Assembly: GCA_006384855.1 (NCBI GenBank)
Contig: VCJN01003215.1
Coordinates: 1 to 64,000 of the forward strand
Direction: 5' to 3'
Source: Tetraselmis striata
Lineage: Eukaryota > Chlorophyta > Chlorodendrophyceae > Chlorodendrales > Chlorodendraceae
Length of the DNA: 64,000 nucleotides
The notes under the pieces were generated by a model. The model saw only the letters and a program-made list of their open reading frames with translations. It did no database searches and was not told the DNA's origin. Shown in pieces: positions 7,957 to 57,751 of the stretch (positions within the stretch are counted from its first letter, which is position 1; the number at the start of each line of letters is the position of its first letter). The translations under genes were made by a program, and so were the position numbers.

Positions 7957-10900
7957 TCAGATGTAGATCGGCGCCGGCGCCTTTTCCATGTCCATCAGGT
8001 CCTCCAGGCGCTCCGTGTCCTCCAGCCGCCCACTGCCGCGGCCGGCGTCCTTCGCGATGATCTTGGTCAGGTACGCCTTGTCGCAGCTCACCGCCTCGTT
8101 GATCGCCTGCGCGGCGCATCGGTCCATTCAGCCAAAATTCGCCACAGCGGAGGTGGCTGTCCTTGGTCGCACTGAGAGTGGTTTTTATTGAGGCCATTAC
8201 CCTCCAAGTCATTACGCCATTCGTCACTAAGTCACTATGCCTTAAGGTCATTAAGTCATTAGGCCTCAAAGTCATCCAATCATTAAGCCATTAGTTGTTA
8301 TGTCTTAAGTTCAGTCAGTCATTACGCGTCAAAGTCATTACGCCATTCGTCATCGAGTCATTAATCATTACGTTACTAGTCAACAAGTCTTTCCGGTTAT
8401 ATGAATTCAACCGCTCCGTACTTTAGTCTGTCCTAGTCGGCAGCAATGGGCAGTCCGCAGACCGAAAGGTACCCGCAGGGAGGGGGAGAGGTGGATTCAT
8501 GGAGGCGCACCTGCAGCCGGGCGTCCAGCGCCATGGAGCGCCGGATCTGTGCGTCGATCGCGTCCGCCATCTCGGAGGAGCTGCGCGGGGCAGGCGGCGC
8601 GGCGGGGTTGGGGGGGGGAAGGTGTCAGGACTATCAGTGCTGGGTTAAGGCAAGCTGAAAAATAGGGCTTCCCTGTCTAGGGTTATATTTGGGGCTCAAA
8701 ACCCTAAAACTTCAAACAGCACATACAACCCTACAAATGGCCGGTCTTTTGTTCTCGCCATTAATTTTTCCCGCGAGTGGCATGACAGCACTGGCTACCG
8801 CCGCTGGCGATCATGTGAATCTACTCCCACTATTACGGGAGGTGGTGTGGACTGTGTACAATGACTTTAAACTTTAGACCTCCCAATAAACCTGCGCTCG
8901 GGCTCTCGGGGCACATCACCTGTACCGCTCCGGGTCCTCATGGAAGGACACCATCCCGTCGCGCGGGTTGATGGCCGCAAAGATCTCGCCCTGCGAGGCG
9001 GCGGGGCAGGGGTAGGGTTTTTAGGGTTAGCAACGCGCCTGTTGCGATCGAAAGGAATTCCGCACTTGCCCTTCTATATTGAACAGACAGCTGCTGGATG
9101 TGGCCAACGCACGCGATTGTGTAGTGCAACGAGCGGAGCGGGCGTTGTTTGCGCCAACTGCAGGTTTTAGGGTTTCATGGTTTGGAGTTAATGTGGGTTC
9201 GAAGGGTTTGGAAGTTCAAGGGTTTTGTGTCAGGGTTGTAGGGCTGAGGCTCACTCCAAAAACCTAGTACCTAATCATGAACCCTAAAGTATATGTGGAG
9301 AGAGCGCATGCTGCCGCGGTTTGTTTTTTGGAAACGTGTATGACGAGGACATTCACAGCATGCGCGCTGATGATAATGGATCAGCAACCGTCCCGGGAAA
9401 TCGCCTGTCTAGGGTCTGGGGTTGACCCCCCCTTTACCTGCTCCACCATCTGCAGGATGAGCTGCTCCGCGGCCTCGGGCCCCGCCAGCCCCGCGGTGTC
9501 GGCGATGCCCTGCCAGGCGCGGCGGGCAGCGAGTCAGTCAGGAGGCAAAGCGGGACCGCCGGATGGCACGGGAGGCATGCCAGGGATGGGGGGGGAGGTG
9601 GGCGGCGCTCGCCTGCAGGCTGAGGGTGAGGTGGGTGTGCGTGAGGCGGCCCACGATGCGCCTCTGCATGCTCTCGACGCACTGCCGGGCGAGGCCCCAG
9701 TTGCCGTGCGCTGCGGCCAGGGGGGGGGGGGGGGGGGGGGGGGACAAATCAGGCACAGACACACGCACACAGACAGGTGCGCATTACTGTGTGAAGGTTA
9801 CCGTAACAGTCGATCGGGTTTAATATGGGTAGAAGTAAAGTGAAGTTCGCCCCGGGACATCGGCCGAAGCCGCCCCAGCACTGGACCTCTTGCGCCAACT
9901 GCAGTCGTAGGTCTGGCATAGCCCGTAGACCATTGCCTCAGTCGAACCCTGAAGGGCTAACGCATCAACCGGGGAAATCACGGGGCCGATATTGCCGAAA
10001 ATACATCGGCCAGGAATCGAACCCCGGGACCTCTCGCGTACGAGACGACCGCTCACTGGAGCAGACCCGGGATGTGCTATTGTGGTCGTTTGCCAAAATA
10101 ACGAACTGTGTTGCATCATCGGAAGTGGCGGAGATTCGGCGATGTTGTCGTGGTGAATTCCGATAGCTTTCCTGGTATTTCATATATAGGTCACCCTGCC
10201 TAACTAAGGGGTCGGCATCAATGATATATTTAGGGAACCCAAAGCCTGGCGACGGCTGTGCCGGGACACGTATGAGCGGGTGTGGCATGGGGCGTTCATA
10301 CACGGGGTAACAGTACCGTAGAATCAAATACGGTTGAGGGGTCAAACAATAATGAACTGGTTTGCGCCTTTGCGTCGGAACATTCGTTATGTATTCGTGA
10401 TTTAGTCTGACTTATTTCTCCGTTTAATAGGGGGGTCAGAAACGCTTTTTATCCGCAGACCGTTTGTGCAGTGGTCCCGTTTGGTCGACTGCTGCAGGCT
10501 ATGAATAGGGCCGTGATTGCGGTTTTGTTATGGTGTGGCTTTGGCTGTGTGCAGGCGGTACAAGCGCACACTGGGTCGACACACAAGGGGCACGTCATCC
10601 CCTCATTGATGGCAGGTGTTTACGGTTAAAGTGCGAGGGTACGCGGGCATCATGCCAAAGTAGCACTATCGGGCAGACATGACGGTTCAAGTGGAGGTGT
10701 CGGGCTATGGGAGTGGGGCCGAGGGGGGGCGAGGGGGGGTACTAGCAAAGGCGTCCCGGTTGGAGTTGATGGCGGCGAGCAGCTCCTCTGACGACTTACG
10801 CACAAACGCGTGCGCCACGTCCTGCCACGCATCCGGCGAGCACAGCCCCTTGAGTAATCGCACAACAAGAGGTGGTGGGGGGAGGGAGGAGGGAGAGAAA

Positions 10901-13674
10901 TAGGCACGAACAGCCACATAAATATACGCACAACAAGAGGTGGGGGGGGGGGGTGGAGAGAAATAGGCACGTACACTCACCCACATGAATATATGCCCGT
11001 ATAGTGTATCATGAGATAGAGTATGGAATCGTGCGAGAGGGGCGAGGGGAAGCAAAGGCCGCCAAGGCGGGAAGAGACAAGGGGGGGGGGGGGGGGGGGC
11101 AAGACGGCGGGCATGGCACATGCGGCCCCCATTTCAAGCTGCACCACTATGCACAATGGGGTCCCAATACACCCCCGTTATGTGGCAGTACCTTAAGGAG
11201 CAACGCGAAGGTGAGGTGTGGGTGGGTGTGGGTGTGGGGGGGGGGGGTGGGGGGCGGGCGCACCGCGTAGATGACGCACTCCGACTTGACGTGGCGGTGC
11301 ACGATGGAGGAGGTGTACTTGGGCAGCGGGGGCGCGGCGCCCGTGTGGATGAGCGACACGAGCACCCACTTTTGGTACGCCGCCACTGCGATGGCGCTCA
11401 CCTGCCGCCAGCACGCAGCCCCCGGTCACGTCAGCATGGAGGTGTGTGTGTGTGTGTGTGTCGGGGCCCTCCCCGTGGGGTGGCTTCCCAACCAACGCGG
11501 CGGCTCAGGGACACCATCCAAACCATTCCCCCGCGGAGCCGCATGATCACCACCTGGGCAGAGCGGCGGCGCCCACACGCCACAGGCAGCGGTACGGGGT
11601 GCAACATCGCACCAGTATGGTACCCAGGTACATTGATGCTCGAGCAACCAAAGTGAGTCGTCCCCTAGCTATCCCAATCCCATTCCGATGCCGCACCGAA
11701 TGACATCGCTCCTGGCACTAATAATCCACGAAACAATATCGAACACTTGGATCTCGACAATGCTGTTTTCCAAATTCGCCTTGGAGCCGGGATCTCCTTC
11801 ATCGTCTTTGAAGTTGGCAGCCGCGAAGACCCTCCTACCGCCCGCGACTCGCATCCCCAAGACAGTGAATCCCGGGATGCTCCTCATGTATCACTTGACA
11901 TACGGTGGCAACCGCCCGGATGACATCTGCGGCTACATCAACACATCCCCATGTGGGCTAGCTCTAGGAGGGGGAGGGGTGCACTGGGGGAGACGGGCAA
12001 TGTGGGGGGGGAGGGGGGGGGAGGCAATAAGGGAGGGGGCGGGCGGATCGCGCACCGCGGTGGCAGGCGCCGTGACGGCGCAGAGCAGCAGCTCCAGCGC
12101 GCGGTCGTACTGCTTCAGCCCGGCAGCCAGCATGCCGCCGTAGTAGGCGTACAACAGAAAGTCCCTGCGGTGCGGCGGCGGTTGTGGGGCGGGCGGTGGT
12201 GGTTGGGGGGGGGGGGGGGGGGGGGGTTCAGCTGGCGGAGCACGCAGCCGGACTCGCCGCGCAGCACATGGCAACCTGCTTGAGATTCTGCCGACAACAA
12301 CCGGCACTGTACGGAGGAAGCCACGCTGCAAACTGCGGAGGGTCACGGATACATTTCTAACATCCATTTCAACTACCGGCGCCGAGGTCACAATAGGAAT
12401 GCTGCAAGCAGGATCCTGCCCTGCCTGCCAGAGGTCAAATCTTGACAACACCGCAACGGACCTACAGCGAATGTTCTTGTCGCCCGATTCGAGCCTGGAT
12501 GCAAGGGTTGTTATAGGTGCGGCAGCACCCGTAGCCTTCCACCTTCTCTCACCGGGTATCCTGTGTCTGAAATTTTCGGGCATGTGATGGTCCGAAGATC
12601 GGGAGGCGGGAGTGACGGTGTCAGGGGGCGGGGGAGGAGATGCACCGGGGCGTGGTGGCGCAGAGGTCGGGCGCGACGTTGTAGATCTCCTCCGCCAGGA
12701 AGGGCGCCGCCGCGTGGTAGCAGTGCGACAGTAGGCAGGCCTGCGTGGGGGACGGCCGCCGCCGTCAGGGGCGGATGATGGCGCATGACATCCTCCTTCG
12801 CATCCATCCACCCACCCACCCACCCACGCTCGGGGTTTGGTTGGATGGCTGTATTCACGTGCGGACCCTCAGCCCCCCCCCCCCCCCCCCCTCTTCTCTT
12901 CTCTCGGCCACCGAGGGGCATGGGGTTGCCTCCCTGGGCCGCTGTCTGGACCCGGCGCGCACCTGGAAGAGGTCGGCGTGCAGCGGGGTGAGGCACTCGG
13001 GCGAGGGGCGCAGCTTGGCGATGCCGGTGCGCAGGGGCGCCACCGCTGCTAGCGGCCGCCCGCCGTGCACTGCCCAGTCCTTCAGCCGGCGGCCCAGCTC
13101 CACTGCGCGATCCGGCGCCTGGCGCAGCGCCTCGCCGTCGCACACGCGGAAGAAGTGCGCCACCTGGGCGGGCACCCGGCGGCAGGGTGAGAGGGATTGG
13201 GCGTCGAATGGGGGTGGGGATGTGGGGGATGGCACGCGGGAGAGGCTCGCAAACCCCCAAGGTCCAGCCACATGCCCACATACTCTACGCATACCATGAA
13301 ACTCGCACATTCCGTCATTGCATTCCGTTTTCGAGGGGGGGGGGGGGGGGGGGGGGGGTGGTTCTCCTTGTCACCAACTCCCTAGATGCAACAAACTCCC
13401 ACATATTGACAGACTCTATGGACTGAGTCAGCTTCGCGGGGGGACCCACCCGCAGGTAGTCCGGCCCCGGCACGCCCGTGGCGCTCGCCAGCGCGTGCGC
13501 GGCGAACAGCCAACCCAGGGTGTGCGCGGCGGGGTCCAGCGCCTCCAGCGCGGCGGGCAGCGCGGCCAGGCCGGCAGTGGTGCGCACAGTGGGCGGCGTC
13601 GCCTCGCGTAGCCACGCCGCCAGCTCCGCCGGCCGACCCTCCCACCCGCGCACCCGCTCCAGCCATGCATCCAT
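7957..13674 (-). CDS. CSN3: COP9 signalosome subunit 3
   Basis: PCI-domain subunit of the COP9 signalosome, which removes Nedd8 from cullin-RING ubiquitin ligases. Exons on the minus strand: 13674-13450, 13163-12963, 12740-12646, 12164-12056, 11401-11264, 10848-10743, 9710-9613, 9509-9438, 8990-8920, 8580-8511, 8106-7957. They sum to 1335 nt (444 aa; family about 425) and every phase closes. Family hallmarks in order: [12 protein letters not shown] (exon 1), [14 protein letters not shown] (2), [21 protein letters not shown] (3/4), [13 protein letters not shown] and LPKYTS (5), [14 protein letters not shown] and [12 protein letters not shown] (7), [15 protein letters not shown] (9) and the MALDARLQ / [10 protein letters not shown] tail (10-11). 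Intron 7 has a GC donor (gcgagc). Introns contain C homopolymers on the sense strand, one SINE (intron 6) and telomere-like motifs (introns 8 and 9). Transcribed away from the coiled-coil gene at 14453. The start was chosen as the first ATG of the exon with N-terminal similarity. Confidence 0.93.
9829..10080 (-). repeat. tRNA-derived SINE, copy C (CSN3 intron 6)
   Basis: Near full length, in the same orientation as the CSN3 transcript. The reverse complement shows GAGCGGTCGTCTCGTACGCG, then a perfect RNA polymerase III B-box-type GGTTCGATTCC and the conserved body ending GGGGCGAACTTCACTTTAC. It is the best-preserved B box of the six copies. Confidence 0.8.
10303..10490 (+). repeat. dispersed repeat (CGTCGGAA...TTATCCGCAG family), copy 1
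   Basis: Shares an ordered set of blocks with 16105-16262 and 56668-56852: 'aaatacggt...gggtcaaa', 'tttgcgtcggaa.attcgt', 'ttatttctccgttt.aatag' and 'ttatccgcagaccgttt'. All three copies lie on the same strand. Lies in CSN3 intron 6 (antisense). Confidence 0.55.
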
Positions 13675-17400: not shown

Positions 17401-20400
17401 CAATGTTTTTACGGTTGCACAAAAATTGACAATGTTACGTATTTGATTTGCCCATGGAACAACTGGCAATGGCCAGCGATCAAACATTCACTGCCTTTCC
17501 CATCGCATCCGACAGGGGAGGGTGGAAGGCAGGGGTGCTTGGGAGGGTAGGCCGGAGGCATGACGGGGGTGGTTGGAGTGGCATAGGAACACCATGTGGT
17601 TGTGCGTGCCCGGCTGAAAGCGGACGACCGCGCCGTTTGCCTCACTGTGACCCAGCCGCAGGACTCTCGCCGTGGCGCAGGTGCAGCGCGAGGCCCGCCG
17701 GCGCCTCTGCGCCTTCCACCGCTGGCGCCACCTGTCACTGTCCAGCCGGTGCGCCCTCATTGGCGCCATCTCGTCTTGTTTCCTCGCTTTCACTCGGCCG
17801 ACACACAGTTGCAAATATAATTATCACTTTCAGGGACCCGTCTTATTATACAAGGACCTTATTACTGTCACTGCCTCTAGGCCGCCATCCCGGGTTTGAA
17901 ATACATTACTCGTCCCGAACTGCCATAAAAATACCGGTAACACGCGCCTTTTTCTTAATGTTCTGATTTATACATCCTAGGTGCGTTCGATAATTATTGT
18001 ATAATTACAGACTATAAATTTGGGATTTGTAATAGAACCAGGATCCGCCATCACGGGAAATAAAACCGATATTATATTTTGGCACCCCGTGGTATTGAGG
18101 ATTGCACCAACGCAGAAATTGCATCGCTTTTGTTGTCAACACCCAACAATGCGAAATGCATGTGATGGTGTTCTCATCGCGGCCAGTACGTCGTCTCGCG
18201 CCAGCCCCTTCCACCCTGCCGGGGCACGCTGAGCGTGGCGGCTGACTGCTGCGCTGGCGCCAGGGTGGAGCTCATGGAGGCGGCAGGCGAGGCGGCGCTG
18301 GTGCTCTCCAAGGCGTGGGGGCGCTGGCGCGCCGCCTGCGGAGCCACACGCCTCGTGAGGCAGCACGTGGGCCGCCTGCAGGTCCGTCGCCCGCTCCCAT
18401 ATCGGCCCACATTCCTCGCGCGCCCCCTATCCCAGCGAGGCAGGCACCGTTTTGGGTGAATGTCATACGCCCGCCGGGACCCACACGTCACGTTTCGACG
18501 ACGAAATTAAATACGCTGCGATACGTCCAGCCCCGCCGGACACGTATTATTCTCCGACGAGAGGTACTCCTCGTTTTAGGAAACGGAACGGCGCGATGGG
18601 GCGCTCGTTCCTGGCTCGCGAGGCATGTCGCGATTGCTACAGAGTTGTCGTCGGCTCCAAGACGACCACTCGCGCTTAGACTCTCATAGTTTACGCCATG
18701 GTGGCATGATCGGTTGCGCCCGGCCGATAGCTCCCCGTCCAGTCGTCGCACATCCCGAGAATTTCGACGTGGATTTAAGACGTATCGCGACGTGTTCAAT
18801 AAATTACTTTATTTCTTCGCAATGCGATGTTTATTTATTTACGTAGTGATTCGTGACGTCAGCCAAAAGATTATGATGAGTTGCATCCTACCCGGGTGCA
18901 TAGATATACCCGGATACACCGGTAACAATATGATAGCATCTGTTTGCATTGGCCGAAAGGGGGGGGGGAGGGCGAATATTTTCGCGCCTGGCAGAAATAT
19001 CAAAGTGCCGGGGCTAAAACTGTGTTTTCAATTGTCGACGGGTCCTGATGTTAATATTACTACTGCCCAACGTAATAAGCACGTTTTATAGTATAATATG
19101 TGATCGTAATCATGGCTATATGACGGCATGATACCAAGGAGTATAGGCCGAAGGACGGGATCCTGAACCATTTTGAATGGCCAGGGAATAAAAAACCATG
19201 ATGATGTCGCACTGCTGCGAAAGACGGACATGGAAGTGTGGTCGCCCTGACGATGCGCCTGCGGGTTTCGCTCGCCGCAGGAGGAGGCCCGGGTGAGCCA
19301 CCTGCGCATGGCCTTCCACGCCTGGCAGCACGGCATCTCCCTCGCCGCCGCGAGCGGCAGCGACAGCCGGGGCGGCGCCACCACGGAGGAGGCCCTCGCC
19401 TGCGCCAAGCGCCACATGCTGCGAGGTGCGCGTCCCTCCCCTACTTTACGTGCTTTCCCTTGTCAGCTTTTGCCCCCCTCCCCCCCCCCCCCCCCCCGGC
19501 ACACACACACATCGTTGTTTCGCCACACAGCGAAGTCGTCAGGGCAGCGAGAGGGACCTGACCGGCGGTGTGTGCGTGCGGTGTGATGCAGCGACCACTG
19601 CGCGCGAGGAGGCCGCCCACTTGCGGGAGCAGCTGGCCAGGATGGCAGGCCATGTACGCCCCCGGCACCCATGAAGCACCCCCCCTGCCTTGCGCGAATG
19701 TACAATATGCCTCTGCGCTCTGAAACCCCTGGATTCTCTCACGGCGCGCCTTGGCCAACTGTCAAATTATTAAGTACGGAGCCGACGGACTCGTAAGAAC
19801 CAGCAATACCACGAGCCTGAAATTGGGCTTTCATGCAACCTATAAGAACATTCGTTTCAGTTCCCCGATAATTTCGTCTGAACTTCTGATGGACTGGGCA
19901 GGTTCTTATTCGCCGTGTTCTGGCTACCCTGTTGGCACTCGTGCCGCCTTCATGGGCCAATTTCTTCCACATCATTGCTACCGATGTACACGTATACTTT
20001 TCAAGATGATACTAAGTTATGTTGTCAAGGTGACACATGTGTGTGCAATGGGCTCCGATGCAGACTCACTGTATCGCTGCTCCACTCGCCAGGTGCGGCA
20101 GCTTCACCAGGAGGTTGTGCAGGCGCGGCGGTGCGGGGAAGAGGACACCGCCGCCGCGGAGAAGCTGGCGGTGCTGGTGCGCGGGCTGCTGCTGCGCAAG
20201 CGCGGCGGGCGCGGGGGCACGGCGCCGGCGGACACGCTCCCGCTGCTGGACCTACACGGCGCTCACCAGCACGACGCAGGTGCGATCAGTGCGGGCTGCC
20301 AGGGCACTCACTCACACACGTGGGTTAGCTCAGGCCTAGCGCAGCAGGCATTACTATCGGTACAGGGATCGACGCTTAGCCCGATGTTAATGGACAGCGT

Positions 20401-23295: not shown

Positions 23296-23360
<65 letters not shown>

Positions 23361-32578: not shown

Positions 32579-33584
32579 ATGGGGGGCTCCGGGGAACCGG
32601 CGACGGCGACAGTAACGCTGCCGGGCGGCGAGACGTTGTCGCTGCCGCTCCTGACGGACGCGGCGGGCGGGCGCTTCCTGGACGTGCGCGGCCTGTACGC
32701 CTCCTCTGGCCTCTGCTGCTTCGACCCCGGCTTCGGCAGCACCGCCAGCTGCGAGTCCGCTATCACCTTCATCGACGGCGCGGCCGGCCTCCTGCTTTAC
32801 AGAGGTGCGTACGCTGAGCTATGTCGGCTTTGCGCTGTGGGGAGTGTGAGTGCACTTGGGTCGGCTTCGCCGAAATCATGGCATGCCAAGATCGATGAAG
32901 TGGAGTTTTTAATTTTTATTTTAGTATTCAAAGGTATAGGGCGATGGTAATGGCAGTGCAGCGCGGCAGTCTGGCGATCTACGACACGGCAGAAGCCTGT
33001 TGCAGCGGGGGCAGCGGTGGATGCCGCCCCCTGTGTAGCAGTGGATGGATTGATGGGTAGGGTGGATGTACAGAAGTTGGCCTCCCGGTGCGTCGGCCGA
33101 CATTCTGCTGGCTAGCGAAGACCCTGAGCTCCCCGTCCCTTGAGCAGGCTACCCCATCCAGCAGCTGGCGGAGAAGGGCGACATCGTGGACTGCGCGCTG
33201 CTGCTCTTCGACGGCGAGCTGCCGAGCGCGGAACAGCGCCTGGAGTTCCAGACGGAGGCTCGCGCGGCGCGCATGGTGCACGAGAGCCTCATCAAGTTCT
33301 ACTCTGGCTTCCGAAGCGACGCGCACCCGATGGCCATCATGGTGGGCGTCGTCGGCGCGCTCTCCAGCTTTTTCAACGACAGCTTTGACGTCACCTCCGA
33401 GGCCAGCCGCCGCGCCTGCTGCATCAACATCGTCGCGAAGATGCCCACGCTCGCAGCCATCGCGTACAAGACGTCGGTGCGCACACGCCATCAGATCGAA
33501 ACCTCACGCCATAATTCTAAGACTACGGGGAAGGAATCGTGACTGTTGATAAGAGAGAGGTTTAGGAAAGTATGAGATGGTGGG

Positions 33585-33615
<31 letters not shown>

Positions 33616-36600
33616 ACACCAAATCCTGTGGAATGATACCTGATTGAATGGAATGCGTATGACACTGTGCAGGTGGGCGAGCCCGTCGTCTACCCAAGGT
33701 GGGCATCCTTGGATTTGTCAATCAGCCGCAGCCGATCAACCTCCCGGAGTCTTGGGCTGACCTTCCGTTGCGTCGGCTGGCCCTCAGCCACCTGCTCCCC
33801 ACCTTACGCCCCCGCCCTTTCCCCCATCGCTTCCTCTCTATGCCTCCTCCCATGCTGGCAGAGACGACATGTCGTTTGCGGAGAACTTCCTCTACATGAT
33901 GCACGCCCGCCCCTGCTCCCCGTACGTCCGGGACCCTGTGGCCGCGCGCTGCCTGGAGGTGCGCCGCGCCCGCTGCCTCCCCATGCCGGCCCTTGTGTAC
34001 GTCCCAGCCGCGTGCGTGAGAATAAAGACCCAGGCGTGCTGCGTGGATCCAGGTGTAGCGCAGTGGTGTTGAGACTGTGCAAGCGCATGTTGGCGGGTTA
34101 CCGCACCCCTGGAACACCCCCATGGCATGGCTTGGCATCGTCACCCCTGTTAGAATGGATTAGAGCAGGGGGGCCCATGCAGGCATTGGTCTGAGACCCT
34201 CTCCCCTCCCCTTCCCCGCGGGCCCTGCCGCCTTTCACCAGGTCATCATGATCCTGCACGCCGACCACGAGCAGGTGCGCCCCCGCAGCCCTGCACGCCC
34301 CACGCTCTCATCACCGCACCGCACCCCATGGCTGACTGGCGCTGCGCCCCTCCCCGCAGAACGCGTCCACGTCCACAGTGCGCATCGCCGGCAGCTCCCA
34401 GGTGCGCCTGCGCGGGACACGGCTGCGAAAGTCCGAGGTTTAGGGAGCTCTTTTGAGAGACGCACTTTACCTCTGAACTATCTAAAGTCCAAATGTGGCA
34501 TCGGTACTTACATCTAAAAAGTATGTTTCACGCGCTGCCCCCCCTCTGCTCCCCTTCCCTTCCTCCGCCATCCACCGCCACATGCGCTCAGGCCAATCCC
34601 TTTGCGTGCATCGCCTCGGGCATCGCCTCGCTGTGGGGGCCCGCGCACGGCGGCGCCAACGAGGCGGTGCTGCGCATGCTGCGCGAGATCGGCACCCCCG
34701 ACAACGTGGCCGCCTGCGTGGCGCGCGCCAAGGACAAGGCGGACCCCTTCCGCCTCATGGGATTCGGACATAGGCACGCCGCCCTCCCCACCTCCCCCCC
34801 CCCCCCCCCCCTCTTACCTTCGCCTCTGCTCCTCCCAAGAGATGACTGCACCCCACTGTCTCTAGCGCCGGCGTAGCTTCCAGATCCCCATTCATCCGCA
34901 TGCGGATCTGCGTGCTATAACTGTTGTGTCCACATGCATGACCGCACGGACCAGGCACATGCTCGTGTTTGCCGCTACCGCGCACGACAACCATGTGGTA
35001 GCTCTTCGGAATATGCGCATTCGCTGTCTGCTACCTGTGACCATGCCATGACGCTCACCTCGTCTTTGGAGGACTGCACGCTACATTCCTTGTCCGCTCG
35101 GTTGAGCGGTCGTCTCGTACGCGAGAGGTCCCGGGATCGATTCCTGGTCAATGTATTTCGGCAATATCGTCCCGGCGTGTCCCGGGTTTACCCGGTTGAT
35201 GCATTACCCCTACTTTGGGGTTCGAATGAGGCCATGGTCTACGGGCTATGCCAGACCTACGACTGCAGTTGGCGCACGAGGTCAAGTGCCGGGGCGGCTT
35301 CGGCCGATGTCCCGGGGCGAACTTCACTTTACTGTACTTTGCACGCTACGATTAGTCGACCCCATGTGGGTGCGTGCACCCGGGCCGTAAGACAGCTGGC
35401 ATGGATCGCCCGGGAGCACAGTTGCCAGAAAAATCAAGTTGTGATGATTACCAGAGAGAGGAAGAACTGTCACCAGCGTGTAGTTCAGCGTGACATGGCG
35501 CATACAGACAGGAAGCTTGCGCCACTGGGTCGGTAGTCGCTTCGGATGGTGCCGGCCGCATGCGCCCGTTGGAAAGTCACCTGGACGGAGCAATGCGCCC
35601 CTGAGCCCGGCCGTCGGTGCGCGCCAGGCTGTACAAGGCGATGGACCCGCGCGCCAAGCTGATGCGCGAGATGTGCGGCACCCTGCTGGCGCACCTCCAG
35701 CTGGACGACCCGCTGCTGCACGTGGCGCAGGCGCTGGAGGAGGTGGCGCTGCAAGACGATTACTTCGTCTCGCGCAAGGTGGGGCGGCGGGGCTGCCCGC
35801 GGCTCAACCGCTGCTGCGTTGCATGTGGACATGCGCACCGGGCGGAAAGATGCACCTATAAGGATCCTGGGACACAGGATGCTTTAGATCTGCCTGGAGG
35901 CAGATTCCCCAAGATCGAAACATGGTCGTTTTTCCGTGGTATTGTCGTTTGGTTTTGGACGGGGCAAAGGTGGGTTTGTTTCTTCGAGGGACGGGGGGGG
36001 GGAGAAGAGGCGACCCTCTGCATTTAGCCAGGGCGCCGTCCGGGTACTGCCCACTCAATCTCGCCCCCACCTTGCCCACCCTCGGGCCCTTGAAGGGCGG
36101 TGCATGATCCTGCCCCGCTTGCCCCTCCGCGTTCTGCCCCCTGTCGGGTCCCAGTGGAAGACAAAGATGGCTGAACCCCCCCCCCCCCTCTCCCTCCTCC
36201 TCTCGGGGCGCTGCTTTCTTGAAATGGCGCGGCACTCCCTCCACGTTGGCGCAGCTGTATCCAAACGTGGATTTTGTGAGCCCCCCTCCTCCCCCCCCCC
36301 CCCCCCCCCCGTCCCGGGTCTCCTGCAGTGCCTGTTCCACAAAGCAAGGGGACAATGCCTCAAATTTGAAATGTGAGACATGTTGAAATTCCGTCACTGG
36401 CCTTCAATTAGTCTTGCAGAACGCTTTGGCAATTTGCTTGATGACTATAACGGAGCGTCGCCTACCTAGGGCTTTCCGTAACTGGATTGCTGCCTAAACG
36501 GCCGTGGTAGAGACGCTGCAACGGTTTCACTGGTCCCAGTCCTGTCCCGGAGGCGAAAAAACAAGTCGCGTACGCCCGTAGTCAGGAATTTTAATAGTAG

Positions 36601-38280
36601 TCAGGTTATTGCGCCAACACCTGAGGACTTAACTGCCTTTATTTTGGGCGGGGTCCCCCCCTCCCTTCACGGCGCCCTGGATTTTACTGGGAATGGGAAA
36701 TTTCTCCAGCTATGGCGTCGGGCCCTCCCTCACATTGCCTTTTTTGTTGCACATGTATCGCACTCCCGAAATGCTTTGCTCCGCGGGTTGGGGCTTGCCC
36801 CAACTCGCATTACTCGAATGGGCCGACGCCCAAACGGGTAGGGCGGACCTTTCGTGGTCAGTGCCGGGTACTTTTGATGGCATTGTTTTATACGGTGATC
36901 CAACAGTGTTGGAAATTCCGTCACTGGCCGCTAATTAGTCTTGCAGAATGCTTCGGCAATTTGCTTGATGACTATAACGGAGCGTCGCCTACCCAGGGCT
37001 TTCCGTAACTGGATTGCTGCCCAAACGGCCGTCGTAGAGTCGCCGCAAGGGTTTCACTGGTGCTAGTCCTGTCCCGGGGGCGGAAAAACAAATGTTGACA
37101 CTCACTCAGCCAGCTCATCAGTCCTATTGTATGACCCCTAGGTCCTATTGTATTGGTCGGACCTCCTGTATGCACACAGGGTCGGCTAGGCTGGCTGCGA
37201 GTCGCACTCTGAGGGCCAACCAGCACCCCGCTAAGCAACCGGCACCGCCTGCCCCTTCCGACCCCCCCCGCGCGCGGCGCAGTACTCGGGCATCTGCTTC
37301 CGCGCGCTCGGCATCCCGGAGGACATGATGACGGTCATCTTTGCTGTTAGCCGCAGCATCGGCTGGTTTGCCCCCCCCCCCCCCCCCCTTCTTGCCTGCA
37401 GCGAATGCATCGGCGTGTCGGAGCGTGTGTGCCTCGGACAACACATCCTTATCCACATGCGCGACCGCTTGCTTGAGGCATGTTGTGACGGCTCTTATAT
37501 GTGACCCCAGCGCCCAACGATGGTGGCAATGGGGACGGACAACTAGGTGCCCTGCTCTGCGGGTGGTGTTTTTTTTCCCGCCCCCGGGACAGGACTTGTA
37601 CCGGTGAAACCCCCAATGCAGCATCTCAACGACGGCCGTTTCGGCATCAGCAATCCAGTTAAGGAAAACCCTGGGTAGCCGACGCTCTGTTATAGTCATC
37701 AAGCAAATTGCCGAAGCATTCTCCTAGATTAATTGAAGTCCAGTGACGGAATCTCCAACACTCTTGGATCGCCGTCGTCTAAACCACCGCCATCAAAGTA
37801 CCCGGCATCACTGACCGCCCACGAAAGTTGTTGTGTTACACCTTACGGTGCCCTCGCGCGCCCTCGGCCCAGCGCGGCGTGCGCAGTGGCGCATGTCAGC
37901 ACGCTTGGATGGGCTACTTCTCGGTGGACATTCCCAACAAAGTCCCCTTTACTCCCCTCCACAAACATCTCGGGGCTCTCTCGTGATGCATTGTTAGCTG
38001 ACCACCCCCCCCCCCCCCTGCGCGCCCTCCCGGCTGCCCCCCCCCGGTCGCCAGGTGCGCGCAGTGGAACGAGAGCATGTCCGGGGGTCTGCCCCGCATC
38101 AGCCGCCCTCGCCAGATGTTCACCGGCGTGGCGGCGCCCCGCACGTACGAGTCCCCCACGGAGCGCGGCTGCCCGGCGCCCGGTGCGCCCGGCGGCGAGG
38201 ACGACGGCAGCGGCATGCCGCAGGCGGCGTCGGGGCCCGTGCGCTCCCTCAGCATCCGCCACGCGCGGGCGCGCCCCTGA
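32579..38280 (+). CDS. citrate synthase, bacterial/peroxisomal-like type II
   Basis: Condenses acetyl-CoA and oxaloacetate to citrate. Eleven exons: 32579-32804, 33148-33476, 33673-33698, 33862-33958, 34242-34274, 34360-34401, 34592-34773, 35628-35778, 36255-36275, 37283-37365, 38055-38280. Total 1416 nt (471 aa), every phase closing. Hallmarks: [20 protein letters not shown] (exon 1), [15 protein letters not shown] (2), [11 protein letters not shown] (4), [16 protein letters not shown] (5/6), catalytic His in [11 protein letters not shown] and FGHR (7), catalytic Asp in LYPNVDFYSGI (9/10), RPRQMFTG near the end. The short N-terminus ([18 protein letters not shown]) is type II-like and lacks an obvious mitochondrial presequence; the Pro/Gly/Ala-rich tail ending ARARP is not a PTS1. 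The frame is open upstream of 32579, so a targeting exon may be missed. Intron 7 has a GC donor (gcacgc). Exons 3 (26 nt) and 9 (21 nt) are microexons. TGTAA lies at 38369. Confidence 0.94.
35086..35332 (+). repeat. tRNA-derived SINE, copy E (citrate synthase intron 7)
   Basis: Full-length reference copy in sense orientation: CCTTGTCCGCTCGGTTGAGC, TCTCGTACGCGAGA hairpin, CCGGGATCGATTCCTGG T-arm, body with GGGGTTCGAATGAGGC and GACTGCAGTTGGCGCA, end GGGGCGAACTTCACTTTAC. Confidence 0.85.
36385..36560 (+). repeat. LINE 3' tail fragment (citrate synthase intron 9)
   Basis: Starts 'gttgaaattccgtcactgg', contains 'ttcaattagtcttgcagaacg', 'ctataacggagcgtcgcc', and ends 'ggtcccagtcctgtcccggaggcg'. 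Lies tandem to the next LINE copy. Confidence 0.75.
36590..37085 (+). mobile_element. 5'-truncated LINE 3' end plus tail
   Basis: Coding part to 36841 gives [33 protein letters not shown] and [20 protein letters not shown], nearly identical to 46790-47030. The tail from about 36905 ends 'gtcctgtcccgggggcgg' followed by aaaaacaaa. Severe 5' truncation is typical of LINE insertions. Confidence 0.75.
37570..37835 (-). repeat. LINE 3' tail, inverted (citrate synthase intron 10)
   Basis: The reverse complement matches the end of the LINE coding region (ggtactttgatggcggtggt) and the tail from 'tccgtcactgg' to 'cccgggggcgg'. Opposite orientation to the two copies in the preceding intron. Confidence 0.7.
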
Positions 38281-45960: not shown

Positions 45961-45986
45961 CTGAGACAGCGAGAAGAGACGAGACA

Positions 45987-46440: not shown

Positions 46441-46504
46441 GGGCCCATGTGGGCGTGTTACGAATCGTCGGCATCGGTAACACGCACTAAAGCCTGGGGT
46501 ATAT

Positions 46505-47100
46505 ATGTTTAGGCGTCTTATGCGTCAAACCCGTTGCCACTGTACGGTGTGGGTGTCCCTGCGGGGGCTGTGGCCGGGCTTAACATTATGTTACAATTAC
46601 GCACCCGAGTATTTCCCACCGCCCGCCGATTGGCCCGGATTCATGCCATGCCTGAGCGGTTCCTTGAACACTGCCAAGCATGTGGCGGAGGTGAATCTGA
46701 GACTATCGAACATATGTTGGTGCAGTGCCCGCGGGTATCACCGTCATAATTTGGGGTTGTTGGTTCCGGAGGTTAGGGATTTTATTAGTAGTCATCAGGT
46801 TATTCCGTCAACACCTGAGGACTTAACTGCCTTTATTTGGGCGGGGTCCCCCCCCTCCCTTCACGGCGCCCTGGATTTTACTGGGGATGAGAAATTTTTC
46901 CCGCTATGGCGTCGGGCCCTCCCTCACATTGCTTTTTTTGTTGCACAAGTATCGCACTCCCGAAATGCTTTGCTCCGCGGGATGGGGCTTGCCCCAACTC
47001 GCATTACTCGAATGGGCCGACGCCCAAACGGGTAGGGCGGACCTTTCGTGGTCAGTGCCGGGTGTTTTCATGGCAGTGGTTTAGACGGTGACCCAACAGT
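46505..47100 (+). mobile_element. LINE ORF2 C-terminus, 5'-truncated
   Basis: Frame 46534-46749 gives LRTRVFPTARRLARIHAMP and the C-x2-C...H...C knuckle (HCQACGGGESETIEHMLVQC), a hallmark of the C-terminus of non-LTR retrotransposon polymerases. After a frameshift at about 46735 the protein continues HNLGLLVPEVRDFI ... [19 protein letters not shown] ... [11 protein letters not shown]-stop. No reverse transcriptase core is present. The 3' tail seen at 36905 is missing; sequence identity stops at 'caacagtgttgga'. Confidence 0.75.
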
Positions 47101-47929: not shown

Positions 47930-50480
47930 TAGTGCAGTGAAGCGCGACCGAGCCCATGTTGGTATCGGTGGTATAGGCCAGCGAACGATGAGCAGCCGTA
48001 GTAACCTCGTACCGGTGGTACCGATGCACCGCGCCCGGCCGCGATGCGTACGCCTACACCGACAAATCGGGACTGGCAGCTTGTAGCGCCGCTAGTGACG
48101 CCCCGCCATGCGCAGCGTGTATACGCTGCAAGCCTCCGAGACGCTAGATAGGGCACGTTACGCTCAAGTAAGGTGCCGGGCATACGCACACGCGGGCCCT
48201 TGCGTGCTGTGGGGTGGGGGTCTATTCGCACCGGTAACTAGACCTAGCTTACATGCAGTGGGTCGCGCGCTGGTGCTTGATGACGTCTCGACGAGCAGTG
48301 CGACTGCGTATACATGTACCGGTACGTATACGCGTCGGCGTACACCTGGCTGGAGTAGCCGGTGTTATCCCGGACACTGCCGGTGTCTCCGGCGTAAACC
48401 TCAATCACCTCTTGAGTAGCAGCCGGAGTAACATCATACATACCGCCGCATGACATACGATCGCGTGTACATATGGCATGTGCGCCCACACGACGGACCA
48501 TGTGGAGCGCCTGCAGGTTGTCCCTCTCCTGAGAACATCTCGTCGTATTATATATGCGGCGCGTACATGCGGGCATGCCCTACGGGGCCCGCGAGGCACT
48601 ATTTCTCGTTGCGCGCCGGCAACGTTGTGACAATTATTGTAACTATGCTGAAAAAACAATGCAGCCTCTCGTCTCTGCACCGCCATTGCACACCCACCTT
48701 TGTTTGTCTTTGAGTCTCGACCGACCGAGACTGTCGCAACGTATCCATCATGCGCACCCGTGGAGATCAGCACGGGGGTCCGAGAAGTACTCCGAATCAG
48801 CTTTACTACCGGCAGAAGAGCACGCTGCTGATGACGCCGCGATGAGCGCAACTGCGTACACGTTGTCTTACACCTAGTTGGACCGGCGGATGTTAATTCG
48901 GGCGCCGTTGTCTACGGCGTATTCTAAGTCTCTACAGAATGGCAGCCGAAGTGGCGCCGAGTAACCTCGTACCGTCGTGCCATACACGATCGCGATGCGT
49001 ACATGTACGCTCACACGGACCATGTTAACATGCAGTCGGTCCTTCACTTGATGTCGCCTCGTTGTACGCACCGCATGCACGTTGGCGAGACTTACATGAC
49101 CTACCTGTGAGGCGCTATTAATCGTCGTCCTTCGACAATGTATCAGGTCATACACGCCCGTGGAGATCGATACGGGGGTCGGAGTAGTACGTCGAACTAG
49201 CTTACCGGCAGCGGGTCACGATGCTGATGACGCCGTGTTGAGCGCAACTGCATACACGCCGGCGTACACCGAGCTGAACCAGCGGGTGTTTGTATATTTC
49301 GGGCGCCGTTGTCTCCGGCGTAACCTGAAATCTCTGAGAGGTGGCCAATGTAACATTGTACCATCGCGGGACGTACAATCGTGATGCGTACGGCCGTACG
49401 CTCGCTCGGGCGAAGTGTGCCGGCAGAGGACCTCTCGGCTGATTGCGACCCGCCGTACGCTGCGCGTACACGCCGGCGGGCCTTGCAAAGCATGCACGGA
49501 GCTAGTTTTCGTCGCGCTCCTAACAACGCCTATGCGTTGGCCATACGCACTCGGCGAGATCGGCACGAGGGGTTGGAGATTTACGTCAAACTAACTTGCC
49601 GGTAGCAATTCGGCTGTTGATAACGCTGCGATGGGCGCGATTGCGCACACACCGGCGTACATGTCGATGGACCAGCGAGTGGTTATATTTCGGGCGCCGT
49701 TGGCTACAACGTAACCTAAATGTCTGCAGAGGGACAGCAAACGGAGTAAACTCGTATTGATATCAGCGCGCCATGCACGATCGCGATGCGTACATCCGTA
49801 TTGGTACCAGCACGCGTGCTCGGACGAAGTTTACCCTGCAACTATTGCTTCGTACAGCCGCGACACGCACGATCGCGATACGTATTACGCGCAGCACTCG
49901 GCGGACGCAAGTAACTACGGGCAGAGGGTCCCTATGTAGATGACGCCCCGTCGTACGCGGAGCGTACTCGCCGGCGTGCTTCGCAGGACCCGCGAGGCGC
50001 TTGTTCTTGTTGCACCCCACCTATGCGTCGGGCTGAGGCACCCGCGGATACCGGCACGGGGGTCGAAAAAATGCAGAACTAGCTTACCGGCAGTAAATCA
50101 CTGACCTTGTTGATGGCGCTGCGATGAGCGCAGTTGCGTACACGCCGGCGTACACCTAGGTAGACCAGCTGCGGTTAAAACCGGGCTTCGTTGTCTACGG
50201 CGTAACCTAAATCTGTGATGGCAGCCGAAGTAACCTCGTACTGTCGCGCCACGCACGATCGCGATGCGTACGCTCATTCGGACGAAGTTACCGGGCAGGC
50301 GTTCCCTCGGCTAATAACACCCCGTCGTACGTGGTGGCGTAACCACCGGCGTGCCTTGCATAACCTGTACGGCGCTACCTCTCGAGGCGCTCCACCGATA
50401 GGTGGATCATACGCACCGGGCGAAATTGGCATGAGGAGTCGGAGCAGTACCTCGAATTAGGGTACCGGCAGCGTTTCAAC
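47930..50480. repeat. diverged tandem satellite array
   Basis: A recurring string of blocks, 'cgatcgcgatgcgtac', 'gatgacgcc...cgtacgc', 'gagcgcaactgcgtacacgc', 'cggcgtacacctag', 'gggcgccgttgtctacggcg' and 'taacctaaat', appears about six times. The 'gatgcgtac' block falls at about 48041, 48465, 48990, 49376, 49780 and 50255, so the unit is about 390-525 bp. Copies differ by many substitutions and indels. No open frame is kept between units. Confidence 0.75.
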
Positions 50481-50514
50481 TGTTGATGATGATGCCATGG
50501 GCGTCACTATGGTG

Positions 50515-51197
50515 GCGGAATATTGCTCGCGGGGGAATTAAAACATTGTCGCCCGGATATATAGCCCCGCCCGAGACCGACTACGAATGGTTCAACGAGG
50601 GCAGAGGTGGCCGTCACCGCAACGCGGCTGGCCAAGTGGGCTGCGGTAGCCCACCCCGTCCGCAATTCGGCACCGGCCACGGGGTCGATACCGAGCGGGC
50701 AGTTGGACGGCCGCGGCCATCGGTAAGATGTAGTGGTGCACCGCCGTGTGAGCGATTTTCGAACAGTCTTGGGTCAAGTTTCATGCGACCCCCAACACGG
50801 CACGTGCCACGTTCGTATTGCCGACGTGGTTCTCGTTACCGTGGTGAAAACCGCTCGCTGGGGCGGAATATTGCTCGCGGGGGAATTAAAACATTGTCGC
50901 CCGGATAGTCCCGCCCGAAACCGACTACGAATGATTCAACGAGGGCGGAGGTGGCCGTCACCGCAACGCGGCCGGCCAAGTGGGCTGCGGTAGCCCACCC
51001 CGTCCGCAATTCGGCACCGGCACCGAGCGGGCAGTTGGACGGCCGCGGTCATCGGTAAGATGTAGTGGTGCACCGCCGTGTGAGCGATTTTCGAACAGTC
51101 TTGGGTCAAGTTTCATGCAACCCCCAACACGGCACGTGCCACGTTCGTACTGCCGACGTGGTTCTCGTTACCGTGGTGGAAACCGCTCGCTGGGGCC
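50515..51197. repeat. tandem duplication, two near-identical units of about 347 bp
   Basis: Unit 1 (50515-50861) and unit 2 (50862-51197) agree almost base for base from 'gcggaatattgctcgcgggg' to 'gaaaccgctcgctggggc'. Differences are a 6-7 bp loss near 'cccggatatatagcccc', a 13-bp loss of 'ccacggggtcgat' and a few substitutions. High identity points to a recent event, or an assembly duplication. Confidence 0.85.
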
Positions 51198-51209
51198 CGC
51201 GGGTTACTC

Positions 51210-51578
51210 GTGGGTTACTTTCGGCAGGCAAGGGCTATGTTTACGCTCCCGGACGGGCACCTCGCGTCGCGAAAGCGACCGGAACCGCAGCAGCGCATTT
51301 TTAGCGGCCTCACTAAGCGGGGCGTCGTGCGAATGCACTTGCTTGTTGTGTTGCTAGAGGGCAGTGCCCCGCAGGACGTCGACATGCTTCGCATGATAGG
51401 CAACAAACGTGTCGTGGTTTACCTATTCTGGCGCGGACAATGGGATGGCGATGGGATTTGTGCGCGAGCTGCGCGGGGCGATGAAGTGACACCGGCGTGC
51501 CTAATGGTGTATATGCTCAACGTGCGTGCAATTTGCCATCTGGAGCAGTTGGTCACGCTGCTGAATGGACAATCCTAG
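51210..51578 (+). CDS. unrecognised ORF, 122 codons
   Basis: Begins in the sequence following the tandem duplication. It has a hydrophobic middle (VVRMHLLVVLLEG, NKRVVVYLFWRGQW) and a helical end (CHLEQLVTLLNGQ). Codon use is less GC-rich than the host genes. It could be a piece of a mobile-element protein; no family recognised. Confidence 0.3.
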   Translation: MGYFRQARAMFTLPDGHLASRKRPEPQQRIFSGLTKRGVVRMHLLVVLLEGSAPQDVDMLRMIGNKRVVVYLFWRGQWDGDGICARAARGDEVTPACLMVYMLNVRAICHLEQLVTLLNGQS

Positions 51579-53831: not shown

Positions 53832-56800
53832 ATGGCGCTGTTGGAGAGCGCGACCGTCCTCCAGGTCCCCCCCCCCCCCCCCCTCTCCGTCCGCTCCTCC
53901 GTGCCCATTCCCTCGAGCTAAGCTGCCCCACTCCGGCTACTCGCAAAAGGGCTCTATGTCTAACTGCCAGCAGCCAAACACGTGCTGGTCTGATACGGGT
54001 ACAGCCACAGGGCATGGCCACCCAAGGGCTTCCAGGCCCTCTGCGTGGATCAACTCGCGCGCTGCTGCTGCCGCTACTGTCAAACTTGCATCCGCCGCCC
54101 GCCAGCCTCCCCCGCGTCTCTGCGCGCCACCGATCCCCGTGCTCCCCCCATCCAGCGCCCAGTGACGCCCTGCACAGCCGCTCTCCATCAGTGATCACTC
54201 CGCTGCCCTCAACGCCGCCTCCCGCTCGCCCTGCCTCTGTCAGGCCCTGGGGGGCGCTGCCTTTGCAGCGGACAAGCTGCTGTCGATGGACGCGCCCTGG
54301 TGGGCGTACGCCGGCTTTGCGGTGCTCGTGATGGCGGCGATGGAGCTGCTGTGCTTCCTGGTGCCCCACATCGGCGCCGCAGTGCTGGCCCTGCAGGCAC
54401 ACCCCCCCCCCCCCCCCCCCTCTCCCCCCCCCCCCCCCCTCCCCATCCCCTTCCTTGGGCTATACCTCGGACGGCTATGTACCACTTACCCCCCCCCCCC
54501 CCCTCAAACTCTCACACTCCTGCCCCCATCTACACTGCCATGTGGTCTCCTACTCCCCGCTAAGGCTCCTTCCTGAGACCCGCCCCGCGCTCCCGCAGGG
54601 GCGCAAGGCCGCGGCCGCGATCCCGGTGCGCGGCAAGCACCTGGACGCCTTCAGCCCCACGGACCGCGCCTTCATCGCCTTCAACCGGCTCACCACGCCG
54701 GTGTTCACCTTCCACGCGCTGCGGTTCCTGTGGTCCAGCCCGCACATCCTGCGCAGCCAGGCGGACGCCACGCTGGCGTCCACCGCGGGCGCGCTGGTGG
54801 CGCTCTTTGTGGCGTACGACCTCACGTACTGCCTCTTCCACCGCGGGCTGCACCACCGCAGCGTGTACCGCCACGTGCACAAGCACCACCACCGGCAGAT
54901 GGCGCCCTCGCGCGGCAACGCGGACGCCGTCAACGTGCACCCGCTGGAGTACCTGCCCGGCGAGTACAACCACCTTCTGGCCATCTGGGCGGTGTCGCGC
55001 CTGATGCCGCTGCACGCCGGTAGCCCCCCCCCCCCCCCCCTCCCCCCTTCCCCGGCCGTATAGACTGAGGCGTTTCGATCCCCCCTCCCCCCCCCCCCCC
55101 CCTTTCTCTCCCCTTCCCTACCAGTAAATAAATCACTATAAGATGTACAGAAACAAACCAGTCTGTTAGGATGGAACTCCCGCGATTGAGAATGGGGATA
55201 GAATAGAATAGAATAGAATAGAAACTGTGTTGATGGTTTGGATTATTATGAAATATATCTGACAGATACATCTTTATTTGTATTGCGAATCGATCTGGGA
55301 TAGCACTGAGGACATGGTTTGGGTTTTGTTTTGGCCATATGTACTGGAAAGTGCACGTGCATTGGTTGAAATTAGAGAGTGATACAGGAAGGCGGACCGG
55401 TGCACGGCGATAAGACGACGACGTTGATTGTACTACACTCGGAACGCGATTACGTGTATTAGCAGGAGTACGCCTGGTGTTGTGTAGTATCGGGCAGTAT
55501 ATCCCTAGGATACATGGCAGCAATATTGCACACGAAGGATTACGTTGTATTCCTATGGCGTCCATAACAGTATATCACGATGGACCTTTAGCAATAACAA
55601 GAAGATGAAGTAGAATAATACCATAATAGAATAGAAACAGGGGGGAAACGCTAGGAGGGTGGCAAAAACTACACCGCCGCACCGCCGTTTGATCTCTCGC
55701 CACCTCCGCGCTAGTATATGAAATTACTCACATGTTTGAGCACACCGCGGAATTACGATGTGATGAAACAATTGAGACCTGCGCGCATGTTTGAGCACAC
55801 AGAAACGGCACGGTCTGCGTGGCCTGCCGCTGTCTCTATGCAGAGGCGGTTTGCCCCGTGGCTGCTCCGCCCCCGTATTTGCCCATAAGCCGCCCGCCAA
55901 CGGCTGCAGGGAATGTCGGCCATGGCGGCAGGGCGCCACCAACTGGTATCCGTCCCTATTGTCTGGCGGCGCCCTTTTCATGCTGCGGGGTGCTGGCTGA
56001 TGATTGGGTGGCGACACGGTAGTAAGAACAATGCCAATAAGGGCCCGCCCTGCCTGCCTGTCAAAGGTCAGATTTAGAGGAAGGTACAGTGTAAGTATAG
56101 CGCAGGTTCCTACAGGTTGCCAGCAAGCCCAACTTCTGGCTTTTAGTATGGGCTCTTGTAGGTGAGTTGGCACCCGTAGACCGGCCAATGCAATCGTACC
56201 AAACCAGGTGCGACTCTGAAACATCAGAGGGCTCAGGCTGACAGCACGACCAGCCAGGACGAGGTGCAGAATATGTCGATCCGCAAACTCTGCATGCTGT
56301 GCAAGGCACCAGCGCGGGCTTGTTGACCCCCCCCCCCCCCCCGGCACCCGCCTGCCCGCCGCGGCACAGGAACGGCGCTCTTCTTCATCGTCATCGGCGG
56401 TGTGATGGCCTCTCTGAACCACACGCGGCTGGACATCAAGTCGCCCCTGCTGACGAGCGTCTACCAGGTGAATCTGCCCCCCCCGGACCCCAAACCCCTC
56501 CCCTCTTGGTAGTACGTGGTCTTGTACGAGTAGCTGCGGCATGTTATACACGGAAGGTTGGCATGTCGCTGCGGCAGCGCCACGTGGGCAGGTTCACATA
56601 GAACAAGCGGTACTTGTTTGTTATCGGCAGCTGATGTGTTAATAATTAAGGAATGCAATGCTCATTCCGTAGGATTAAATACGGTCCGCGGGGCCAAAGA
56701 GCACTGAAGTGTTTTGCACTTTCGCGTCGGAATGTTTGTGATGTATTTGTGCTTTATTCTGAATTATTTCTCTCTTTCAATAGTTTTCCCACTCCACGAG

Positions 56801-57751
56801 GGGCCAAAAAAGTTGTTCATCCGCGGATCGTGTGTGTTTCTACAGTACTGCAACCCTGGTATGTCGCACTAAAAGTATAGTTCACCGGCCGAAGCCGCCC
56901 CAGCACACGACCTCGTGCGCCAACTGCAGTCGTAGGTCTGGCATAGCCCTAAGACCATTGCCTCATTCGAACCCGAAGGGCTAACGCATCAACCGGGTAA
57001 ATCCGGGACACGCCGAGACGATACTGCCTATTATACATCAACCAGGAATCAATCGAACCGGGGACCGGCTCTTGGATAGCAGACTGCCGCTCAACCGAGC
57101 GGACAAGGAGTGTACCTTGTCGCGTTGTCTGCTGCTGTCTCCGCACAACAGGTGCCGACGCGGTCGCAAGCGCATAGCAAATAAGGCCATGCTCCGCCTA
57201 TCATGGGTCACATGCAGGCGAACCTACAGGGGAACTCCAGCGACGTGCGTATTGTCCGCCGGGATAAACATGATTACGTCCGCGCCAGGCAGTCCAGTTT
57301 TGGATAGTCTCGCAGGGATTGCTTGACAACTTCGTTCCTCCGTGACAAATTTATAACAACTTCGTTCCTGCTTCGTCTTTGATGCTAAACATACCACCTG
57401 TCTTACGGCCCGGCGGCACAAACCCGCATAGTGTCCCCTAGCGTGCAGCCCTGTGAAGGCCAGGCTTGATGACACTACTCTCGCCGTACCCGCAACCATT
57501 GCCCTTCAGTCATTGAAAGCCGCGCCAGTCCGCGGATTTCGCATCGCCGGCTCAGGCTTGCCCGACCGCCTCGCCGCCTGCAGGTGAAGTACCACGACAT
57601 CCACCACTGGGACCCGAGCGTCAACTTCGGGCAGTACACCATGCTGTGGGACCACGTCTTCCGCTCGTTCCGCGCCTACCCGGGCGAGGGAGGCAAGGAG
57701 GCGGCGTGGGCCAAGGTGCGCCCCGGCCCCGTCGCCACCAAGGCGGAGTGA
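53832..57751 (+). CDS. fatty acid hydroxylase / sterol desaturase family protein
   Basis: Membrane di-iron oxygenase of the ER; the substrate (sterol, wax or other lipid) cannot be read from the sequence. Five exons: 53832-53864, 54244-54396, 54599-55019, 56370-56467, 57584-57751. Total 873 nt (290 aa), every phase closing. A hydrophobic segment lies at about residues 30-60 (YAGFAVLVMAAMELLCFLV). Histidine boxes: HRGLHH (143-148), HVHKHHH (154-160) and HDIHH (239-243), the last followed by NFGQYTMLWDHVF, the family C-terminal motif. A second membrane hairpin is TALFFIVIGGVMASL (204-218). Intron 2 starts with a GC donor (gcacac). Introns 1-3 have C16-C19 runs within 2-10 nt of the donor. TGTAA lies at 57951. 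Converges with the DusA-like gene. Confidence 0.92.
55199..55223. repeat. (GAATA)n short tandem repeat
   Basis: About five units of GAATA/AATAG in intron 3 of the hydroxylase gene; a related string occurs at about 55612-55636. Confidence 0.8.
56020..56195 (+). repeat. dispersed repeat (CACCCGTAG family)
   Basis: 'agaacaatgccaataagggc' and 'ccgccctgcctgcctgtcaaagg' match 7325-7375; 'gggctcttgtaggtgagttgg' plus CACCCGTAGACC match parts of 16945-16990 and 12505-12535. In intron 3 of the hydroxylase gene. Confidence 0.5.
56668..56852 (+). repeat. dispersed repeat (CGTCGGAA...TTATCCGCAG family), copy 3
   Basis: 'aaatacggtccgcggggccaaa', 'ttcgcgtcggaatgtttgtg', 'tttcaatagttttccc' and 'ttcatccgcggatcgtgtgtg' match the copies at 10303 and 16105. 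In intron 4 of the hydroxylase gene. Confidence 0.55.
56880..57118 (-). repeat. tRNA-derived SINE, copy F
   Basis: In intron 4 of the hydroxylase gene, antisense. The body is well kept (ggccgaagccgccccagca, gcgccaactgcagtcgtagg, cattcgaacccgaagggct). The tRNA part is more diverged (hairpin region altered to gctcttggatagcagactgc) but the GCTCAACCGAGCGGACAAGG end remains. Confidence 0.75.
57330..57480 (+). repeat. dispersed repeat (TACGGCCCGGC family)
   Basis: 'gtcttacggcccggcggcac', 'aacccgcatagtg' and 'gcgtgcagccctgtgaaggc' match about 1640-1712 and 58230-58315. Confidence 0.55.

Follow-up and report, generated by a model that had tools for sequence, protein, structure and literature searches.

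In Chlamydomonas reinhardtii, introns are reported to lack a polypyrimidine tract and to have C-enriched 3′ ends instead (PMC2830987). At the other end of the intron, U-rich elements downstream of 5′ splice sites are reported to be read by Nam8/TIA-1/RBP45d (PMC9813592). G-quadruplex motifs near splice sites are described for mammals and birds, with higher values on the non-template strand and a strand asymmetry that is larger at the 5′ splice site (PMC9065059). According to a review, G exceeds C in human and mouse introns (PMC10030826).

As in the published account of C. reinhardtii, the predicted introns of Tetraselmis striata are enriched in C, not in T, upstream of the acceptor; however, C runs also occur here, and more strongly, after the donor; the runs in the introns counted are 8 to 27 nt long. 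Their position just inside the donor is that of the elements described for Nam8/TIA-1/RBP45d. A pyrimidine element does lie directly downstream of the donor, but it is made by C only, in place of U, and one copy appears to do without its long form. A strand asymmetry of G/C-run motifs at splice sites is shared with the G-quadruplex motifs reported for mammals and birds, but the sign is reversed, C being on the RNA strand; judged by runs of at least 8 nt, no G-quadruplex-like excess is seen near donors, where 31 C runs stand against 1 G run. Like mononucleotide microsatellites, the tracts vary in length between near-identical copies and are scarce in exons, whereas long tracts here are formed by C/G only and A/T tracts are not long. 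Titles and abstracts among the matches listed in a literature search, which covered subscription literature in part, do not mention poly-C on the donor side of algal introns.

The window, i.e., the whole stretch of 64,000 nucleotides under analysis, belongs to contig C2599 of the genome searched (224 Mb, 2903 contigs). The window was scanned for runs of at least 7 C or G, and sequence contexts were taken for those of at least 8. Gene models were constructed using a small purpose-written HMM with an in-frame third-order coding model and a non-coding model that is strand-symmetric, so that C/G skew has no influence on strand assignment; Pfam matches and conserved window peptides served as anchors. 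The sample outside the window consists of 21 stretches of 8–9 kb around Pfam Mito_carr exons of the same genome. A WD40 search was overwhelmed by repeats, and its loci (L001–L038) were excluded from every count. After the removal of introns outside 50–3000 nt in length, of those flanked by a weak exon, and of one false 53-nt intron by hand, 120 predicted introns were retained.

The spliced citrate synthase protein, trimmed by hand and extended by a 21-nt micro-exon, shows a gap-free alignment over 345 of 345 residues to the citrate synthase of PDB 4e6y, which supports the models and splice junctions of this gene. The spliced carrier of locus L041 matches mitochondrial uncoupling protein 1 over residues 12–272 of 294, and in three of its five introns a long C run directly follows the donor. 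GC donors instead of GT were assigned to 28 of the 120 predicted introns, and the one at position 34774 of the window is backed by protein homology. The true rate of GC donors is uncertain, since the HMM tolerates GC and one pair could stem from wrongly called introns of a repeated gene. This pair, the introns at 6689–8604 of L047 and 5000–7235 of L052, is similar from the first base, and both introns may have been called wrongly in a gene that is repeated or mobile; the pair was kept in the set. A PDB search with the coiled-coil ORF returned no match, and an Rfam scan of the window revealed nothing at gathering scores.

The preliminary description had reported 26 C runs and 4 G runs of at least 8 nt on the sense strand of introns in the window. 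The independent gene models reproduced this count exactly for four genes (26:4, binomial p = 6 × 10−5), with C:G values of 10:1 in CSN3, 1:1 in the coiled-coil gene, 7:2 in citrate synthase and 8:0 in the hydroxylase. With a threshold of at least 12 nt, the ratio in the same introns is 19:2, and the other four window gene models examined contain 4:2. No exonic runs were found in any of the eight window gene models. Since CSN3 lies on the minus strand, the bias tracks the orientation of the gene and not the chromosome strand, as had been proposed; genome-wide, the strands are symmetric, with 197,721 overlapping placements of C18 on the forward and 196,947 on the reverse strand.

On the plus strand, one citrate synthase intron starts with GTTTG followed by C18 (37371–37388 within 37366–37388), and this junction is backed by the gap-free 4e6y alignment. 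The homology-placed micro-exon LYPNVDF of the same gene (36255–36275) continues through the donor GTGAGCCCCCCTCCT into C20 (36291–36310; whole feature 36255–36310); the HMM missed this micro-exon, so its donor-side C20 is tallied as interior. The homology-backed GC donor of citrate synthase is followed by C18 from 20 nt in (34794–34811 within 34774–34811). In the hydroxylase gene (plus strand), a GC donor precedes C19 (54402–54420) and C16 (54424–54439) within 54397–54439, the donor GTAG precedes C17 (55024–55040 within 55020–55040), and at a third donor, C8 begins 9 nt in (56468–56484). In CSN3 (minus strand), sense C12 begins 16 nt after the start of the donor GTGCGC (11236–11247 within 11236–11263), and sense C8 begins 17 nt into an intron with a GC donor (9588–9612). 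Acceptor-side runs include a sense C24 of CSN3 (9720–9743 within 9711–9743, minus strand) that stops 9 nt short of the intron end, and, on the plus strand, C8 and C9 of citrate synthase ending 13 nt (37262–37282) and 9 nt (38037–38054) upstream of the acceptor and C16 of the hydroxylase ending 27 nt upstream (56327–56369). The counter-examples are a sense G19 in a CSN3 intron (12873–12891, minus strand) and, on the plus strand, a sense G23 in the citrate synthase intron 33477–33672 (33588–33610) and sense G10 runs in a citrate synthase intron (35993–36002) and in an intron of the coiled-coil gene (18959–18968).

Outside the window, 90 predicted introns of the 21 stretches contain 51 C and 17 G runs; the 31 window introns contain 28 and 5. 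The intronic C bias is real and replicates elsewhere, but its size is closer to 3:1 than to the 6.5:1 first given for the window, an over-estimate due to the small sample. Gene by gene, C exceeds G in 18 cases, G exceeds C in 4 and the two are equal in 3 (p = 0.004). When no gene model is used, the ratio is 29:15 between Pfam-anchored exons (p = 0.049) and 35:10 up to 1 kb outside them, and at 1–4 kb there is no bias (27:35). Unassigned DNA, to which no gene orientation was applied, contains 21 C and 18 G runs. Predicted exons have 2:1 runs in 38.5 kb.

The excess of C at intron ends is absent from the preliminary account, which had suggested examining enrichment near donors. For runs of at least 8 nt in the 120 predicted introns, the C:G ratio reaches 31:1 in the 50 nt next to the donor and 15:1 in the 50 nt next to the acceptor, compared with 33:20 in the 58 kb of intron interior (p = 0.10). 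The difference from the interior is significant for both the 5′ zone (Fisher’s test, p = 2 × 10−4) and the 3′ zone (p = 0.027), and bootstrapping over introns gives a C fraction of 0.89–1.00 at the 5′ end and 0.46–0.78 in the interior. The first 20 nt of introns alone contain 23 C runs and 1 G run. The density of C runs per kb falls with distance from the donor, from 12.5 in the first 10 nt to 6.7 (10–20 nt), 3.3 (20–30 nt), 1.7 (30–50 nt) and 0.7 (beyond 300 nt), and G runs show no peak along this distance in the same introns. Comparing the donor end with the interior, density per kb is 5.2 versus 0.57 for C and 0.17 versus 0.34 for G. What makes up the bias is, for the most part, surplus C at the donor end, and less so a deficit of G.

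Six variants of the base HMM were compared with it, covering no run penalty, forbidden GC donors, no anchors, stricter penalties and a shortened donor matrix. The end effect persists in all seven settings, with 24–34 C versus 0–2 G runs in the 5′ zone. An HMM artefact, in which the run penalty or the GC donors would pull donors to C runs, is ruled out by these variants; in addition, G runs are handled identically and yet do not pile up at donors. The interior ratio ranges over the settings from 32:20 to 41:21 (p = 0.015–0.18); 41:21 is found with the strictest penalties (p = 0.015), and the short donor matrix gives 35:18 (p = 0.027).

This clustering at intron ends indicates that the strand bias tracks splicing signals more than transcription overall. 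Of the three causes proposed earlier, the link to splicing fits the ratios of 31:1 at donors and 15:1 at acceptors. The other two, selection along the whole intron against G runs in the nascent RNA (quadruplexes or R-loops) and transcription-coupled slippage that favours C in the RNA, predict a strong interior bias and are rejected as the main cause by the observed 33:20 and by the genome-wide C12:G12 of 184:144 at 70–100 nt from the word CAGGTGCG; at most, they can explain the mild interior excess. As an account of the asymmetry, we regard them as quite improbable. They could draw on this leftover interior bias (up to 41:21 in the strictest setting), on the ratio of 14:7 in 3′ gene flanks of up to 500 nt (p = 0.19), and on two genome-wide counts near the word CAGGTGCG, namely C12:G12 of 184:144 at 70–100 nt from it (p = 0.031) and fewer G12 near donors (107 at 0–30 nt versus 144 at 70–100 nt). 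However, the interior bias is small, it is close to the short-run ratio, and by gene it amounts to 10 cases of C above G versus 6 of the opposite, with 2 equal (p = 0.45). Moreover, C runs are equally frequent in introns with G runs (7 of 17) and overall (48 of 120), and avoidance of pairing between C and G runs within one intron is therefore not seen.

The intron ends are C-rich even where long runs are missing. In the 93 of 120 predicted introns whose first 60 nt are free of runs, C makes up 47%, 39% and 44% at nucleotides 7–10, 11–15 and 16–20, respectively, and 28% at nucleotides 101–200; this gain occurs at the expense of A and T, G remaining about constant. T is not raised at nucleotides 7–30 (16–20%), so the donor-side element is C-only and not U-rich. 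In the 106 of 120 introns whose last 60 nt are run-free, C reaches 39–41% and T 16–22% at 5–20 nt from the acceptor, that is, C is raised and T is not, as for a C-rich substitute of the polypyrimidine tract. Short runs follow the same pattern: C4–7 outnumber G4–7 by 82:24 in the 5′ zone and 72:17 in the 3′ zone, and only mildly, 309:219, in the interior. The interior ratio of long runs, 33:20, is not far from this last supply of short ones.

In 234 kb (the window and L039–L059), A/T homopolymers stop at 10 bases, and C/G homopolymers, the sole kind longer than 10, reach 31. Their run-length distribution in the same DNA drops to about 9–12 bases and is then roughly flat, with no decay, to about 25.

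On these compositional grounds, the asymmetry is probably, in the main, a by-product of C-rich splice-site neighbourhoods that seed poly-C slippage. The tens of nucleotides on the donor and acceptor sides of predicted introns, C-enriched on the RNA strand also where long runs are absent, would supply the seeds. Only C/G homopolymers exceed 10 bases in the DNA covered here, and they are scarce in exons; slippage on such seeds may generate long sense C runs beside splice sites, while in the interior, where C and G seeds are nearer to balance, both kinds of runs would arise. This turns the strand-bias puzzle into a testable statement, that poly-C microsatellites are seeded by splice-site neighbourhoods.

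The yield of long runs per seed leaves room for selection on the tract itself, since it is higher at donors: C12 or longer to C5–7 is 23:40 at the 5′ end and 27:97 in the interior (odds ratio 2.1, p = 0.037), and with C4–7 as seeds, the donor excess of long runs is 3.5-fold (p = 9 × 10−6). By analogy with known systems, the donor C tract might be a selected splicing enhancer at which a poly-C-binding protein recruits U1 snRNP, long tracts being kept for this reason; we consider this possible but doubtful. Such an enhancer would fit the sharp peak in the first 20 nt and the location shared with the U-rich elements described (PMC9813592). Donors followed by C runs also lean towards weakness, with a mean score of 3.0 versus 3.6, GC donors in 8 of 24 C-run introns versus 20 of 96 others, and G at +5 in 8 of 15 C-run versus 55 of 77 other GT introns, but these trends are not significant (p = 0.23; p = 0.22). 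The two contig copies of one donor differ: C5 is followed by C24 in the first, whereas the second has only C5; the long donor tract thus looks dispensable. An expansion of poly-C-binding KH-domain proteins, which it had been suggested to look for, is not seen, KH domains looking unremarkable with 18 exon matches on 11 contigs when judged within this one genome. It is rather unlikely that, in this lineage, the 5′ splice site is helped by a poly-C tract read by a C-binding RNA protein, as a counterpart in C of the U-rich Nam8/TIA element, and that poly-C microsatellites which lengthen and shorten beside many donors tune splicing between alleles. If the tracts do act in splicing, allele-specific splicing variation caused by unstable donor homopolymers would be directly testable.

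Pattern counts over the whole genome were made on the forward strand alone because the reverse-strand listing repeats each run many times. CAGGT followed by 1–15 nt and then C12 occurs 2174 times, and 764 times with G12. The control with the reversed word, GTCCA followed by 1–15 nt, gives 708 C12 and 380 G12 and is also C-leaning; hence, part of the CAGGT ratio reflects general context (odds ratio 1.5). Within 0–30 nt after CAGGTGCG, C12:G12 is 346:107, and the like-for-like comparison of near and farther positions after this word gives an odds ratio of 2.5 (p = 3 × 10−9). Some CAGGTGCG occurrences may not be donors, and the genome-wide ratios are probably diluted.

Many Pfam matches are paired over two contigs, as if alleles had been assembled separately. 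Four contig pairs (C2585/C2504, C1527/C205, C2442/C1030 and C354/C2820) are 97–99% identical. Most runs are common to both copies at the same sites, many with unequal lengths (30/21, 23/20, 24/17 and 17/19, next to equal pairs of 10/10 and 19/19), and some are missing from one copy. Such differences in length at the same site between close copies are those of mononucleotide microsatellites and speak for the slippage reading. The window sample is small, and run lengths are uncertain in long-read assemblies. An origin of the bias in chance or assembly artefact is nevertheless hardly credible: it is replicated in the 21 other stretches and genome-wide, most runs are shared by the contig copies, and gene orientation is invisible to an assembler. 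The artefact named earlier as a possible refutation is thus unlikely. In genomes of this type, poly-C tracts also have a bearing on gene prediction and on the polishing of long reads.

The offsets of donor-side runs resemble one another, as they would if introner-like insertions carried a C run at a fixed place. However, when the 120 introns were compared all against all by BLAST with their runs masked, hits were obtained for 52 pairs, and among the first 40 alignments listed, all but one pair are dispersed repeats away from intron starts; introns similar end to end were not found among these alignments, the one pair mentioned above being similar from its first base. We consider such insertions very improbable. 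A dispersed repeat of ~230 bp is present in several introns in both orientations (window ~35082–35332, 9834–10077 and 3307–3533; L047, L051 and L059). The open frames at 36482–36841 and 46481–47035 of the window, one of them within a citrate synthase intron, contain near-identical stretches of peptide and perhaps belong to a mobile element. At 5874–6455 of the window, a frame that we take to be LHC-like is broken by apparent frame shifts, where the HMM placed introns of 1 and 53 nt; this reflects either assembly indels or a pseudogene. Two adjacent open frames at 50435–51357 of the window share one peptide, resembling a tandem duplication of a unit of several hundred bases.
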